From a virus, in the IMG/VR virus record IMGVR_UViG_3300031167_000052, positions 1-20,087 of that record: a stretch of DNA of 20,087 bases; one strand, given 5' to 3'. The notes below the pieces were generated by a model that was not told the origin of the DNA, did no database searches, and saw nothing but the letters and a program-made list of their open reading frames with translations. Of the stretch, positions 2,764 through 15,073 are shown piece by piece (position 1 is the first letter of the stretch; every line of letters starts with the position of its first letter). A program made the position numbers and the translations under genes.

Positions 2764-5700
2764 TTAAACAGATTCTCCTCCATCTACTATTGTCCAACCA
2801 TAACTATTAACTAAACTTTCTCTAGCAGGAATAGCTTCTGCTGTATATCGACTACCTCCAAAGTTAGTAGTAATTCCTGTAGGTGGAGAATTTAAAACCT
2901 CTTTTACTGAGATGCTGCTTAGAGTAGCAACTGTACCTCCATTGCTATTTATCGTAAACCCATCGTTCTGATTAGCGGCTGTAAAATAATTCACATAAGT
3001 TCCATTATCTGCTGCGGTTAGTATAGGTCTTGGTGGAGTGGAACTGTGTGAACGCCCAAATTTTAACTCTATTGAGCCGCTTGTAATATCTAAGTCCTCT
3101 ATTACTAATTTGTAGCTTTTACCTATTTCAAAAAAACTACTAACCTGTGAGCAGGATGAATAAACTGTACCTCCTCCGCTTGTGTCGATTTGGCTACTAT
3201 TTAAACTTAACCCACTTGCATTAAAAAATTGACCTCCAACTGATGATATACTCCAATCCTGCCCTACCTCTTTTACTGAGATGCTTTTTAATGTTAATGA
3301 AGTACCTGACAAAGTACTAGTATAAAATCTATTATTAGTACCTGAGCCTATAAAATAAGCAGTATGAACACCTACACTATCATCTACATAAAAATAAGCA
3401 CCACCATTATAAAACCTTAAAGTCATACCTCCTACATTTTCAGTAACCTCATAAGTTACTTTATATTGTTTTCCTACAACTATAATATTACTCTGATACA
3501 GTTTAGTATTAATATCAAAAATAGCACCATTATTAAACTCTACACTACCATCAGGTACTACCCAATACTGCCCTACTTCTTTTACTGATATGCTGTTAAA
3601 TACAGAACCTACACCTGATGAATATCCATTATTAATTCCTACTCTTCCCCCGCCCCAAGTGCTACTCCCTCCTACAGCATATATTATCTGTAGTCCTACT
3701 ATTAATGAATAATTTCTACCTGCTACCCAAAGTGTAGTAGCTCCATCTAAACTCACTACATCTACAATTATTTTATATGAATTGCCTGCAGTTATTCCGC
3801 CTGTTGTTTGATATGCTAAACCTCCTGATGTTTTAGCTAATTGTTGAGTTTCTGTATTTATACTTGAAGAGCCACCCCAATTAGTATCTGTTACAAAGTT
3901 TGGATTAAGCATAAATTCACTACCTATCTCACTAAAATCTCCATTAAGTATCTCCTCTGCTCCTATCTCATCAAAATCTCCATTGCTTATAAGTTCAGGC
4001 TCTTGTACTGAACCTGAATCCTCCCATTGCATAAGTAATTCATCATAGTTAGCAGTTGATAGAGTTACATTTGTCATAAAACCACCCATACTACTTGTAG
4101 AGTTATCTATTATTGATGTAATATCCCATTGACTTATATTTTGGTCAAAATTATTAGCATTACGGAACATATGACCCATATCTTCAACATACTTCATCTC
4201 CCAATTATTTATGGGTTGGTTAAAATTATTGCAATAATAAAACATATATCTCGTCCTAGTAGCAGAACTTGTATCCCAATTATTTAAAGGCTGATTAAAT
4301 GCGAAACATCTGAAAAACATTGTATAGAAATCAGTAACATTTCTAACGTCCCAATTATTAACAACTCCATTAAAGAAATCACAATTCCTAAATGTATTTT
4401 GTAAGTTAGTAGTTGAAATAATAGGAGCGGTAGTAGCAGTACAAGTCATATAAGTACATCCGAAAAATGAAGAATGCTCAGTTATATTAAATCCTCCCCA
4501 ATTACTTATAACTCCCATCTTAAGCCTATCTCCTCCTTCATTAAACTTCCAACCTTTTACCTCTCTATAAATATTTATAGTATAAGTTCCTGCAGATGCA
4601 TAGGTATGTAAAGTTTCTGCTTGATTGTAAGATGTTATGTTACTTGTAGTAGCATCTCCCCAATGAACTACCATATTTATATCTCCTGATGATATTAATG
4701 GTAATTGGAATTGGTCTGTATCTGATAATACTTTTTTTACTGATACGTTAGTAACGGTAAATTGCCAATCCCCTGCTGCAGAATTCCGTGCTACATTAAT
4801 TCCTTGAGAATTGCTATTAGATTCAAAAAATATTTCTATATTTTGAGTTGCTCCTGTTAATGTTACTGCTCCATTTACTGAAGTTAACCCCCCTACATTA
4901 CTAGAATTATCCTGAAATCTCATTACCTTACCTGCAGTACCACTTAACGTAGCGGTTAACTTATATTTTTCACCGGAAGTATATGTTAAACTTTGATAAA
5001 TAGAAGCGTATGCCCCCCTTATAACATTTATTTCAGCAAGTCCATTAGATATTGTAGCGTTGGTTTTTGACCAATCTCCATTATCTCCTAAGCTAAAATC
5101 TGAATTATCAACCATTTCACTCCCCAAAGTACTACTATCAGTATCTACTGAAAATGTAAATGATTCATCTACAGGAAGAACACCACCACCATCTGTTATT
5201 GTCCAACCATAATCATTTACTAATTCGTTCCTAGCAGTTTCAGCGTCTCCGTAGAATTTATATTCACTATTCCCAAAGTTAGGAGTTAAGTCTGTAGGAG
5301 CAGTATTTAATATTTCTTTTACTGATACACTATTAAAAGTAATATCTACATTAGCAGTCGCTCTATAAAATTTTAAAGGAGTATTACCGGTTGGAGTAAT
5401 TATCCTTGTATTTATTCCTAAAGTATTAAAAGTTTCTGTTATTCCTGCACCATCTATTTTTACACCTCCACTAACTCTCTCTGAAATATCTACAATTATT
5501 TCATATGTCTTTCCTGCTGTTAGGATATAAGTCGATGTTATTAACTCAGTAATAGGACTTGTATTTAAAAACTTTAATCTTGCCGTACTGCCATCAAATA
5601 CAACATAATTATCAGTAGTTTCAGAACTTACTGTCCAACCTGTACCTAAAGGTAGTTGAGTAAAATCCCCATTAGTTACGAGTTCAGGTTCTACTACCGT

Positions 5701-7407
5701 AGGAGAACCTAACCATCCTGTTAATAAAGAATCATAGTTAGAAGTCCCAAGTGTTGCTCCTAACATTACGTCATTCATATTTGTTACTGATTCAATATTC
5801 CAATTACCTAAGTCTTGGTTGAAGTTAGTAGCGTAAGCAAACATACCCTCAATTCTAACAAAAGAACTAGTATCCCAAAAACTTAATGGTTGGTTAAAGT
5901 CATAAGCTTGATAAAACATATTGAGCGTAAGAGTAACAGAACTTACATCCCAATTATTTAAAGATTGATTGAATTCATAAGCTCTAAAAAACATATAACT
6001 CATCTCAGTAGCAGAACTTACATCCCAATTATTTAATGGCTGATTGAATTTATGGGCTGCATAAAAAACACCAAACATACTTTGTGCAGAACTTAAATTC
6101 CAATTATTTAAAGGTTGATTGAAATTATCACAATTAGCAAACATATAATTCATATATATAACAGAACTTGTATTCCAATTATTTATGGGTTGATTGAAGT
6201 TATTGCACCCTAAGAATACTTGTTGCATATCTACAACTCCACGAGTATTCCAATTATTAACAACTCCATTAAATAATAAACAATTTCTAAAGGTCTGATA
6301 CAGATTTGTAGTTCCTATAATTAGAGAGTCAGTAGCAGTAGCAGTCATATTAGAACAGCCTTTAAACGTTTGAGTATCAGTTATAGTAAACTGTCCCCAA
6401 TTACTTATATCATTTATTTTAAGTTTATCTCCTGAATCAGAAAACCTCCAACCCCTAACCTCATTAGTAATCTTTATAGTATAAACTCCTGATGCAGCAT
6501 AAGTGTGAAGAGTTTCAGCTTGATTATAAGTTGTTATAACATCTGAAGTTCCATCTCCCCAATCTACATTCATACTAATAGCTCCATTTGAAACTAAAGG
6601 TAATTGGAATTGGTTTGTGTCTGATATTACCTCTTCTTCACTCCCTAATGTCTGACTATTAGTATCTACCTCAAAAGTAAACTTTATATTTGAGTCTTTT
6701 TCAGCATTACTAGGTCTTCCATCTACATATCCAAGTCTTTCATTTGGATAGTTATGGATAGTTTGATTATTAACATAAGAACCTAAAGCTGAAGTATCTT
6801 CTATATCTGATGACCTCAGCAGTTCCACAAGATTACCATACTCATCACTAACAAGAGTTTTAGAATATAATGAGTCTTCTTCTGTTGTTACTTCTTTTAT
6901 TGATATGCCTGTAACACTTCCAACTGTACCTGAAGCATTAGGTCTCACTCTTACTCTATCAGTATTTGTAGCTGTAATTATTTGAGAATAAATACCTGTA
7001 GTGTATCTATTATCCCCTACAACACCACCAAAAGTCATAACAAAATTACCTGAATATATAGATAATACTTGAAAACTTAAAACATAAGACTTTCCTATTT
7101 CAGCAATAGTAGTTCCTTGATTTAGGTCATCATTTGAAGTCCCATCACAACTGAAAAATCCTGCTATTGTTTTATCCCAATTTGAATTAGCGTTCCAATC
7201 AGTTCCTGCAACAGCATTACTTCCATTCTCTATTTCTTCAGCACCTTCAGGATTAGTATCGTAATAAACATTACCCTTTGAAAGACTTACAATTCCTGTA
7301 TCACTAGTAGACATAGAAGAACTGTTAATTGGATTCCAATTTTGTTCAGACGCACTATTCCTTCTAGGTATATTTTGGTGTGATTTAGTTTTATTATATG
7401 TTCTCAT
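2764..7407 (-). CDS. Giant modular tail adhesin: PKD-like, BspA/DUF285 repeats and nested carbohydrate-binding-like modules
   Basis: A 1547-residue protein, probably a receptor-binding tail fibre or spike component. From the N-terminus it holds: a short leader; a carbohydrate-binding-like module (about 57-171); a segment SLYSKTLVSDEYGNLVEL; a PKD-like domain (about 268-320, VDWGDGTSD); seven 25-residue BspA/DUF285 repeats (about 378-552, FNQPxNNW core); a second module (about 573-699); and GWTITDGGG. A second copy of the plan follows: VDTDSSTLGSE, an inserted module (765-894), a PKD-like domain (about 900-950, WGDATTSN), four DUF285 repeats (about 1010-1120), then three mutually nested modules (1137-1504) and a closing GWTIVDGGE. 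Six modules carry NGDF-like starts and SVKEV-like ends. DUF285 repeats are leucine-rich-like and found in surface and phage adhesins. There is no signal peptide, as expected for a virion protein. Function is inferred from architecture and its place in the tail cluster. Confidence 0.85.
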   Translation of the reverse strand: MRTYNKTKSHQNIPRRNSASEQNWNPINSSSMSTSDTGIVSLSKGNVYYDTNPEGAEEIENGSNAVAGTDWNANSNWDKTIAGFFSCDGTSNDDLNQGTTIAEIGKSYVLSFQVLSIYSGNFVMTFGGVVGDNRYTTGIYSQIITATNTDRVRVRPNASGTVGSVTGISIKEVTTEEDSLYSKTLVSDEYGNLVELLRSSDIEDTSALGSYVNNQTIHNYPNERLGYVDGRPSNAEKDSNIKFTFEVDTNSQTLGSEEEVISDTNQFQLPLVSNGAISMNVDWGDGTSDVITTYNQAETLHTYAASGVYTIKITNEVRGWRFSDSGDKLKINDISNWGQFTITDTQTFKGCSNMTATATDSLIIGTTNLYQTFRNCLLFNGVVNNWNTRGVVDMQQVFLGCNNFNQPINNWNTSSVIYMNYMFANCDNFNQPLNNWNLSSAQSMFGVFYAAHKFNQPLNNWDVSSATEMSYMFFRAYEFNQSLNNWDVSSVTLTLNMFYQAYDFNQPLSFWDTSSFVRIEGMFAYATNFNQDLGNWNIESVTNMNDVMLGATLGTSNYDSLLTGWLGSPTVVEPELVTNGDFTQLPLGTGWTVSSETTDNYVVFDGSTARLKFLNTSPITELITSTYILTAGKTYEIIVDISERVSGGVKIDGAGITETFNTLGINTRIITPTGNTPLKFYRATANVDITFNSVSVKEILNTAPTDLTPNFGNSEYKFYGDAETARNELVNDYGWTITDGGGVLPVDESFTFSVDTDSSTLGSEMVDNSDFSLGDNGDWSKTNATISNGLAEINVIRGAYASIYQSLTYTSGEKYKLTATLSGTAGKVMRFQDNSSNVGGLTSVNGAVTLTGATQNIEIFFESNSNSQGINVARNSAAGDWQFTVTNVSVKKVLSDTDQFQLPLISSGDINMVVHWGDATTSNITSYNQAETLHTYASAGTYTINIYREVKGWKFNEGGDRLKMGVISNWGGFNITEHSSFFGCTYMTCTATTAPIISTTNLQNTFRNCDFFNGVVNNWDVRNVTDFYTMFFRCFAFNQPLNNWDTSSATRTRYMFYYCNNFNQPINNWEMKYVEDMGHMFRNANNFDQNISQWDITSIIDNSTSSMGGFMTNVTLSTANYDELLMQWEDSGSVQEPELISNGDFDEIGAEEILNGDFSEIGSEFMLNPNFVTDTNWGGSSSINTETQQLAKTSGGLAYQTTGGITAGNSYKIIVDVVSLDGATTLWVAGRNYSLIVGLQIIYAVGGSSTWGGGRVGINNGYSSGVGSVFNSISVKEVGQYWVVPDGSVEFNNGAIFDINTKLYQSNIIVVGKQYKVTYEVTENVGGMTLRFYNGGAYFYVDDSVGVHTAYFIGSGTNNRFYTSTLSGTSLTLKSISVKEVGQDWSISSVGGQFFNASGLSLNSSQIDTSGGGTVYSSCSQVSSFFEIGKSYKLVIEDLDITSGSIELKFGRSHSSTPPRPILTAADNGTYVNYFTAANQNDGFTINSNGGTVATLSSISVKEVLNSPPTGITTNFGGSRYTAEAIPARESLVNSYGWTIVDGGESV
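2896..4000 (-). repeat. Three nested carbohydrate-binding-like modules
   Basis: The outer module begins at residue 1137 (ISNGDFDEIG), is interrupted after residue 1149, and resumes at 1383 (QDWSISSVGG), ending near 1504 in SVKEV. The middle module begins at 1150 (AEEILNGDFSEIG), is interrupted after 1162, and resumes at 1280 (QYWVVPDGS), ending in VKEVG at 1382. The inner module runs uninterrupted from 1163 (SEFMLNPNF) to 1279 (VKEVG). In nucleotides: outer 4000-3961 plus 3261-2896; middle 3960-3922 plus 3570-3262; inner 3921-3571. Each module resembles the CBM_4_9-type fold found in many marine phage virion proteins. Confidence 0.7.
4070..4378 (-). repeat. Four BspA/DUF285 repeats, block 2
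   Basis: Four units (FNGVVNNWDV, FNQPLNNWDT, FNQPINNWEM, FDQNISQWDI) repeat the plan of block 1 in the second half of the same protein. The last unit is extended by a Ser/Gly-rich insertion (STSSMGGFM). The block is three units shorter than block 1, consistent with unit gain or loss after duplication. The boundaries are approximate. Confidence 0.8.
5752..6276 (-). repeat. Seven tandem 75-bp (25-residue) BspA/DUF285 repeats, block 1
   Basis: Seven consecutive 25-residue units each begin FN and carry the core FNQPxNNW, then (N/D)xSSxxxMxxMF. The first (FNGVVNNWNT) and last (FNQDLGNWNI) are the most diverged, as is usual for end caps of a solenoid. The period is exactly 75 bp with no indels. 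The first ends of the block are approximate to a few bases. Confidence 0.85.
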
Positions 7408-13165: not shown

Positions 13166-15073
13166 TTAATATATTTTATATTTATTATTTAAGTAATTTA
13201 TTACTGCAGTTTGTTCTGTTAAACTTAAAGCTCTATTGTATATTATAAGCTCCTGAACATTTCCATCTAAATTACCTAAATGAGTTCCGTTTCCTATTTT
13301 AAATTTAGCAGCATTGTATGTTTGAGTGCTATCGTAACTTGCCATAGTTCCTTCTTGTATAAGAACATTATTATACTGAAGGCTTAAATTAGATATAGAT
13401 GATTCTAGCTTCATAGTTGCTATATGGTACTTTGAACTATCCCCATTCCATATCCTTCTAGCGTTCCACTCCCCTGAACTCTGAGAACTATCAGCTAAAT
13501 TACAATATATTCTTTCTGAAGAACTTCCTAAAGATATTTTTGCATTTCCAAACTCATAACTAAAGTAAGTGCTTTCTTCTGAATTAGGAGCAAATGCTCT
13601 AAAGTTATCAGCAGTCATACCCACCATAGTACCATCATTAGAATTTGCACTAGCATCAGGAATAGTAGGGAATGTTGCCCCATCTCCCATTCTCCACCAA
13701 CCAATAAGACTTGGAGAGCTAGTTGCTAAAGTTGTTAAGTCGTTTGGATTACCTAAATTATACAGCTCAACAATTTCAGCAGTAGATAATTCTTTATCAT
13801 AAATACTGCATTCATCTAAATCTCCAACATAAGGATTGGTATTCCCATTTCCTAAATCAAGAGAAGATGTAGTTGTCTGCATACCATTATAAGTACCACC
13901 TTGATGAAATGAGCTTTGAGATTCTACTCCATTTACATATATTTTCATTCCTGCAGTAGTACCACTACCATCATAAGTAGCTGTATATAAAGCCCATTCT
14001 CCTTTCTGATTGATATTCAATACCTTTGCGTTTATATACCCTCCTGCTATATTATCATAAATAAAAAAGTGTACATCTCCTGAAGAGTACACAGGTCGAA
14101 AAGAATACTCTGCCTGACCTACTTCATATTTCTCTATCCACCCCCTCCAAGGCTCTGTAGGGTCTACATTTGCCCAAACACTAAGGCTGAATGGTTGGTC
14201 GTTTCCTGCTCCATCTGTAAATGAGAAAAGCTGACCTCCTGCTCCACCTGCAGGGTTGCCACAATCAACAACATCTCCTGCTCCTTCAAAGTTTGTAGAG
14301 TATGTATTTGTAAATGGAGTAGTTACAGGCTCTGCTTGTGCAACTGTAAATATTGTAAAGTCTGTATTAATAGGACTATTAGTAACTGATTCTAATTCAT
14401 CAGCAGTTCCATCAAAGTTTATTCTTGTTTTATCTGAAGCTCCATCATAAGGTATTCTTAATGGCTGTTTTGTTGCTGTAGATTGAGCAGCATTGTTATT
14501 GTTTCCTGATTGGTCTTGCCAAGCACTTATTCTTTTAGTTGGAGTGTCAAATGTAACGCCACTATCAGCCCTTAACCAAGTTGATAAATTAGGTATCTGA
14601 GTAGGGTAGTGTGTTGGTATGCTACCTAACATACATCTTGTAACTCCTCTCATTGTAAAGCTCATCTTAATTTGAATAAGCCTGTCATTTGCAACTTCTT
14701 TTACTCTTTTTATATCAATAGATTCGTCTAGGAAGTAAACCCCCACTCCTGCTCCTGTAGGATTCTTAAAGTTAATCATTACATTATTTAGCCATTCTAA
14801 AGCTAAATCCTCTAAGTTATCCCATTTTTGTTCTAGTAAAACTGATTTCTGTGATGCTGTTTGATATAAATCAAAGAAATCTATCTCAAAATCATAAGAT
14901 TCCCATCCATTATATATTTCAGGTATTTGTGAGTCAGGTGGTATTATCATCATATACGGATATTGCGTATTATGATGTTGATTTACTTCAAATTCATAAG
15001 CAAAGTCCTTATCCCCGTAAGTCCATTTGCTTTTCATTGCAGCTACTATATCTGTTAGTCTTGTTATTGCCAT
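13166..15073 (-). CDS. Tail protein with a LamG-like domain inserted inside another LamG-like domain
   Basis: A 635-residue protein. Residues 1-150 form a conserved-looking domain (YPYMMIIPPDSQIPEIYNGW, DFEIDFFDLYQ, NLEDLALEWLNNVM) resembling small tail-completion or terminator proteins; that is a tentative reading. Residues about 160-253 start a concanavalin/LamG-like fold (LSTWLRADSGVTFDTPT, AWQDQSGNNNNAAQS, TDFTIFTVAQAEP). Residues 254-496 are a second, complete LamG-like unit (NTYSTNFEGAGDVVDCGN, FSLSVWANVD, MKIYVNGVES, LDECSIYDKELSTAEIVELY, SLIGWWRMGDG). Residues 497-635 finish the first fold (YFSYEFGNAKISLG, YNAAKFKIGNGTHLGNLDG, ELIIYNRALSLTEQTAVINY). LamG domains bind glycans, so an adhesion role is likely. 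The gene starts 5 nt after the proposed frameshift extension ends. Confidence 0.75.
   Translation of the reverse strand: MAITRLTDIVAAMKSKWTYGDKDFAYEFEVNQHHNTQYPYMMIIPPDSQIPEIYNGWESYDFEIDFFDLYQTASQKSVLLEQKWDNLEDLALEWLNNVMINFKNPTGAGVGVYFLDESIDIKRVKEVANDRLIQIKMSFTMRGVTRCMLGSIPTHYPTQIPNLSTWLRADSGVTFDTPTKRISAWQDQSGNNNNAAQSTATKQPLRIPYDGASDKTRINFDGTADELESVTNSPINTDFTIFTVAQAEPVTTPFTNTYSTNFEGAGDVVDCGNPAGGAGGQLFSFTDGAGNDQPFSLSVWANVDPTEPWRGWIEKYEVGQAEYSFRPVYSSGDVHFFIYDNIAGGYINAKVLNINQKGEWALYTATYDGSGTTAGMKIYVNGVESQSSFHQGGTYNGMQTTTSSLDLGNGNTNPYVGDLDECSIYDKELSTAEIVELYNLGNPNDLTTLATSSPSLIGWWRMGDGATFPTIPDASANSNDGTMVGMTADNFRAFAPNSEESTYFSYEFGNAKISLGSSSERIYCNLADSSQSSGEWNARRIWNGDSSKYHIATMKLESSISNLSLQYNNVLIQEGTMASYDSTQTYNAAKFKIGNGTHLGNLDGNVQELIIYNRALSLTEQTAVINYLNNKYKIY

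Follow-up and report, generated by a model that had tools for sequence, protein, structure and literature searches.

Nested CBM4/22-like modules in a putative tail-associated adhesin of a tailed phage

Stacked heads and displaced bodies in P0001

The C-terminal region of the phage protein P0001 contains three short module starts in a row followed by three long module bodies, raising the questions of which start belongs to which body and of how such an arrangement is produced. The window, i.e., the whole stretch of DNA analyzed, is a 20,087-base virus record encoding a large terminase and a tape measure protein, indicative of a tailed phage. P0001 (2764 to 7407, minus strand) is a 1547-amino-acid tail-module protein with PKD-like and DUF285 blocks. 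The tape measure gene lies near P0001 and the terminase within the same window, and from its sequence and setting P0001 is likely to be a tail-associated adhesin, a function that is putative. A profile search with the full protein detected no match to a CBM family. The DUF285 region is partly repeated (4351 to 4650 versus 6250 to 6549, 72% identity over 300 nt, 1899 nt apart). Elsewhere in the window, a 635-amino-acid protein (13166 to 15073, minus strand) has laminin-G-like domains, and it matches the tail terminator family phrog_347 within this laminin-G-like part.

Modules of this type consist of a head, xELVxNGDF, with a Trp-starting body, ending in SVKEV, that begins 6 to 7 residues further on. 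Residues 1138 to 1504 of P0001 (2896 to 3996, minus strand, as are all of the following features) contain three consecutive heads, with the motifs NGDFDEIG (1142 to 1149), NGDFSEIG (1155 to 1162) and NPNF (1168 to 1171), and then three bodies, with KEVGQYW and KEVGQDW at the joins. The innermost module, SEFMLNPNF...SVKEVG (3571 to 3921, residues 1163 to 1279), is a contiguous head and body. The middle head, AEEILNGDFSEIG (3922 to 3960, residues 1150 to 1162), is assigned to the middle body, QYWVVPD...SVKEVG (3262 to 3570, residues 1280 to 1382), and the outermost head, ELISNGDFDEIG (3961 to 3996, residues 1138 to 1149), to the outer body, QDWSISS...SVKEV (2896 to 3261, residues 1383 to 1504), whose last SVKEV occupies residues 1500 to 1504. 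These two pairings of outer heads with particular bodies required relatives, as the window sequence by itself gives no assignment. The original prediction, that heads are stacked and tails return in reverse order, was confirmed in P0001 and found to recur in uncultured phage contigs, and the predicted cut points, 1150 to 1382 and 1163 to 1279, were exact. The same nest is present, identical, in two other assembled contigs, making an assembly error unlikely.

Rejoining of the displaced pieces restored the layout of an uninterrupted module. With a profile of uninterrupted modules, the two rejoined window modules scored 68 and 60 bits over nearly the full profile length, while the bodies without heads scored 53 and 46 bits; an uninterrupted copy within P0001 itself (ELVTNGDFTQLPLGTGW..., 5305 to 5685 with approximate ends, head at residue 579) scored 59.5 bits. 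The spacing from the head F to the body W was 7 in 131/131 rejoined pairs and 6 or 7 in 212 of 221 uninterrupted modules. Head sequences differ between the two classes, being F-ATDSDW or F-SNGSTDW when uninterrupted and F-SQIG, F-SQEG or F-SEIG when stacked, and displaced bodies start with KEVGQ(D/N/H)W. The tail is SIDNVSV in contiguous modules (D in 185/222) and SITNISV in many displaced ones (T in 123/207). An EIG-type head adjoining W was found in 0 of ~250 uninterrupted modules, the nearest being NGDFSQGGQDW in contig L225.

An AlphaFold2 model of the window nest (68 sequences; mean pLDDT of 75), the structural check suggested with the original prediction, gave bodies rich in beta strands but left residues 1 to 26 of the model, containing both outer heads, unplaced at a pLDDT of <50. 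For a natural two-level nest, L242 (96 sequences), the model had a pLDDT of 92.6 and a pTM of 0.81, and its outer-head blocks scored pLDDTs of 91 and 89. We infer that each outer head would pack physically on its distant body. Foldseek matched the porphyran-binding CBM 8xmz (TM of 0.68 over one domain) and also CBM4 (1gui) and CBM22 (4xup), placing the modules by structure comparison in the beta-sandwich fold of the CBM4/9/22 family. Pfam CBM_4_9 (PF02018) matched 11 of 46 related uninterrupted modules (E values of up to 0.1; best, 5.3e-7). Fold matches to the C-terminal sandwich domains of insecticidal proteins were taken only as a resemblance of fold. Carbohydrate binding by the modules is putative. 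The phage modules resemble CBM4, CBM9 and CBM22 in fold, and some of them match PF02018; the solved CBM22 pair that was matched (4xup) is in tandem, whereas the phage modules are nested.

Empty sites, paired layers and balance

Homologues with an empty insertion site, sought as a check on nested insertion, were found. Contig L236 has one module and L241 has two, with ~92% DNA identity around the loop (72/78 nt identical upstream and 345/374 nt downstream); where L236 has a 15-nt loop (ATDSV), L241 has instead 369 nt carrying a complete module. Hence, in this pair, as in the rejoined profile matches of the window, a host domain is interrupted by a complete domain and then resumes. In L217, an uninterrupted module corresponds to the body displaced to the middle position in L067 (98.8% identity across 320 nt), and the outer body of the window occurs uninterrupted in L003 to L010 (68 to 74% protein identity, with DNA identity of 81 to 83% for L003 and L009). 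The residue-579 module of the window represents the empty-site version of the body that is outermost and interrupted in L018 (84% DNA identity), and L225, with its rejoined-type junction, has a body that is 73 to 74% identical to the one lying outermost in L047 and L072. Sites with no module at all were detected in L288, L290, L291 and L292, in which the gene context is the same and the linker between LamG-like regions, nest-bearing in relatives, is empty.

Close relatives differ by matched starts and ends. The two-level L209 and three-level L057 share 681 nt of inner nest at 89% identity, and L057 has an extra head (+42 nt) before the shared nest and an extra body (+330 nt) after it. A single outermost body, with 96.6 to 97.2% DNA identity, closes nests of depths 2, 3 and 4 (L248, L128 and L043, respectively), so that an inserted domain in turn carries an insertion. 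No gap separates the innermost head from the first body.

In order to compare heads and bodies across loci, i.e., uncultured phage contigs from IMG/VR scans, bodies were detected with a profile and heads with a motif; a parse using a profile that included the head scrambled the head/body order and was discarded. Before manual correction, equal head and body counts were observed in 85/105 complete stacked clusters, compared to a permutation expectation of 48 on average and 63 at most (10,000 permutations). Three-level clusters dominate this set and are related to each other, such that the 105 clusters do not represent as many independent events and the contrasts between close relatives carry more weight than this count. 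On reading, the remaining 20 clusters were mostly due to missed tokens. Counting of unusual innermost heads restored balance in L124 (6/6), L096 (4/4) and L281, L256, L258, L071 and L199 (all 3/3); other misses were an NSNF head (L275) and unrecognized bodies (L011 and L012, 6/6; L018 and L040, 4/4). False heads (L043 and L076), contig ends (L193 and L204) and insertion into a second loop (L084 and L085) accounted for further mismatches. Nests of relatives had one to six layers, with balance holding up to six heads and six bodies on inspection. A real exception was L201, with three heads and one body, possibly due to a deletion between tails or an assembly error. The tail of the L201 body (SIDNVSVKEYLG) resembles that of the next downstream module in relatives.

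More complex arrangements were also observed. In L011, a closed module is followed by a new stack, both lying within an open module. In L084, an entire three-level nest interrupts a body at a second loop, and the rejoined pieces of this body align to the module profile unbroken. From NGEFDELG onwards, L084 and L085 have a branched arrangement of six heads and six bodies, in which the interrupted body resumes after the nest.

Order of pairing and mode of variation

The preferred reading, considered very probable, is that CBM4/22-like beta-sandwich domains form a three-level nest in the C-terminal region of P0001, with layers that vary, probably by recombination at anchor sequences, and with a putative role in surface binding. 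Whole modules would occupy the loop between the head and body of another module. Heads would thus form a stack, with bodies closing in the opposite sequence, and each outer domain would be discontinuous, its body completed by a head located 100 to 230 residues or more upstream. The nesting, the empty sites, the balance and the paired gain and loss of heads and bodies are directly apparent in the sequences compared. An unlikely alternative is that heads and bodies were duplicated independently in tandem, the bodies being complete side-by-side domains and the heads a repeated linker with its own role. The heads are indeed short, near-identical repeats, the bodies alone reach substantial profile scores, the window model does not place the outer heads and L201 is unbalanced. 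Independent duplication does not, however, account for equal numbers at depths 2 to 6, the constant rejoined spacing, the paired difference between L209 and L057 or the single whole-module insertion separating L236 and L241, and the outer head is placed with confidence in the two-level L242 model.

Nesting might also involve crossing of the chain, with the outer pairs formed in parallel (first head with first displaced body). Exchanging the heads, which have almost interchangeable sequences, gave profile scores that did not separate the two orders, and statistics on the junctions of all nests gave no discrimination of head-to-body pairing because the junctions are too uniform. Relatives of different depths were informative. 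The four-level nest of L040 and the window have two outer heads identical over 62 nt (each window head being identical in DNA to its L040 counterpart) and the same QYW and QDW junction DNA, and the additional layer of L040 (TPG head, AQNW junction) sits inside these window-type heads and junctions; partners are, therefore, kept under mirror but not parallel pairing. Similarly, L209 retains an SQE-type head together with the middle body of L057, its mirror partner. Pairing in mirror order is thus supported by these sequence comparisons and is the order that whole-module insertion yields directly, making parallel pairing very improbable.

As for the mode of insertion, the original prediction proposed that modules entered repeatedly and in frame at a (D/S)EIG site already present, by way of 8-bp microhomology. 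Window inserts are flanked by such sequences, with GAGATAGG at both heads and GAAGTAGG and GAGGTAGG at the two tails. This mechanism did not prove general: no uninterrupted module has EIG beside W, the L236/L241 loop was replaced rather than split and the 8-nt junctions differ at 3/8 positions on average (131 mirror pairs). As mirror pairs were no closer than parallel pairs, the near-perfect repeat of the window mostly reflects E-I/V-G codons, and the 8-nt repeat was rejected as a general signature of insertion. Microhomology is, hence, an unlikely explanation, while nested insertion itself stands on the empty sites, the profile fit and the mirror order of relatives.

Most related three-level pairs have a body in common at only one position, and head-stack DNA is conserved while bodies differ. 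Across loci, the SVKEVGQ(D/N/H)W junctions of displaced bodies contain a strong excess of rare synonymous codons (TCA/TCG for Ser, GTC for Val and GGG for Gly), a sequence pattern that suggests gene conversion or a shared origin of the anchors. From these three observations, homologous exchange at conserved head and tail anchors, together with selection for balanced products, appears to fit better than 8-bp insertion. Under the nested reading, the range of one to six layers probably results from recombination between these anchors, and surviving products are nearly all balanced, presumably because a headless body does not fold.

Distribution, known systems and implications

Searches of cultured phages detected no match to the window region and, with another nest as the query, two weak single matches, one of them in a Microcystis phage. 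No match was found in plasmids, and none was confirmed in bacterial and archaeal genome contigs with two queries. Deep domain nesting is described mainly in conserved enzymes. In the Si3 region (hybrid-motif/HABAS) of the cyanobacterial RNA polymerase beta-prime subunit, recursive insertion reaches up to six levels, many of one fold (PMC13114784). The phage nests resemble Si3 in having domains within domains of the same family to as many as six levels. Si3 belongs to a conserved cellular enzyme, whereas the phage protein is a putative adhesin of a different fold and function, and phage nests vary in depth between close relatives and exchange bodies between layers. In RTX adhesins, such as AhLap of Aeromonas hydrophila, a ligand-binding CBM buds from a discontinuous beta-sandwich domain and projects off the adhesin axis, and a vWFA domain, itself interrupted, emerges from an RTX domain (PMC12077191). 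These split domains similarly project a ligand-binding-type domain from a discontinuous beta-sandwich, but they are shallow and combine different families, while in the phage nests host and insert are of the same family and insertion is recursive and mostly into one loop.

A literature search mainly outside subscription papers yielded no account of phage tail proteins with self-nested modules of polymorphic depth, no paper on nested domains in phage tails and no layer-wise mode of phage tail diversification. Within the literature searched, the claim that such nesting is undescribed thus holds for phage tails but not for recursive same-family nesting, which was already known from cyanobacterial RNA polymerase; it is the self-nested, depth-polymorphic phage version that is new.

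In many phages, a single small domain family provides the host as well as the insert, with insertion mostly at one fixed loop. Given natural empty sites at ~92% DNA identity, matched pairs from nature can be used directly to test how nested domains evolve and fold. Annotation as tandem domains would misread such proteins, as distant heads and bodies belong together. The likely role would be for a tail-associated adhesin to project surface-binding domains of several different kinds, pointing to a compact mounting of binding domains on the phage tail. A broader proposal, on which we are evenly divided, is that phages vary receptor binding at the population level by adding, removing and exchanging whole self-nested layers under a balanced grammar enforced by folding. 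As layers are gained and lost as matched start and end pieces, these findings suggest that marine phages vary their attachment proteins through wrapping domains around one another rather than lining them up.
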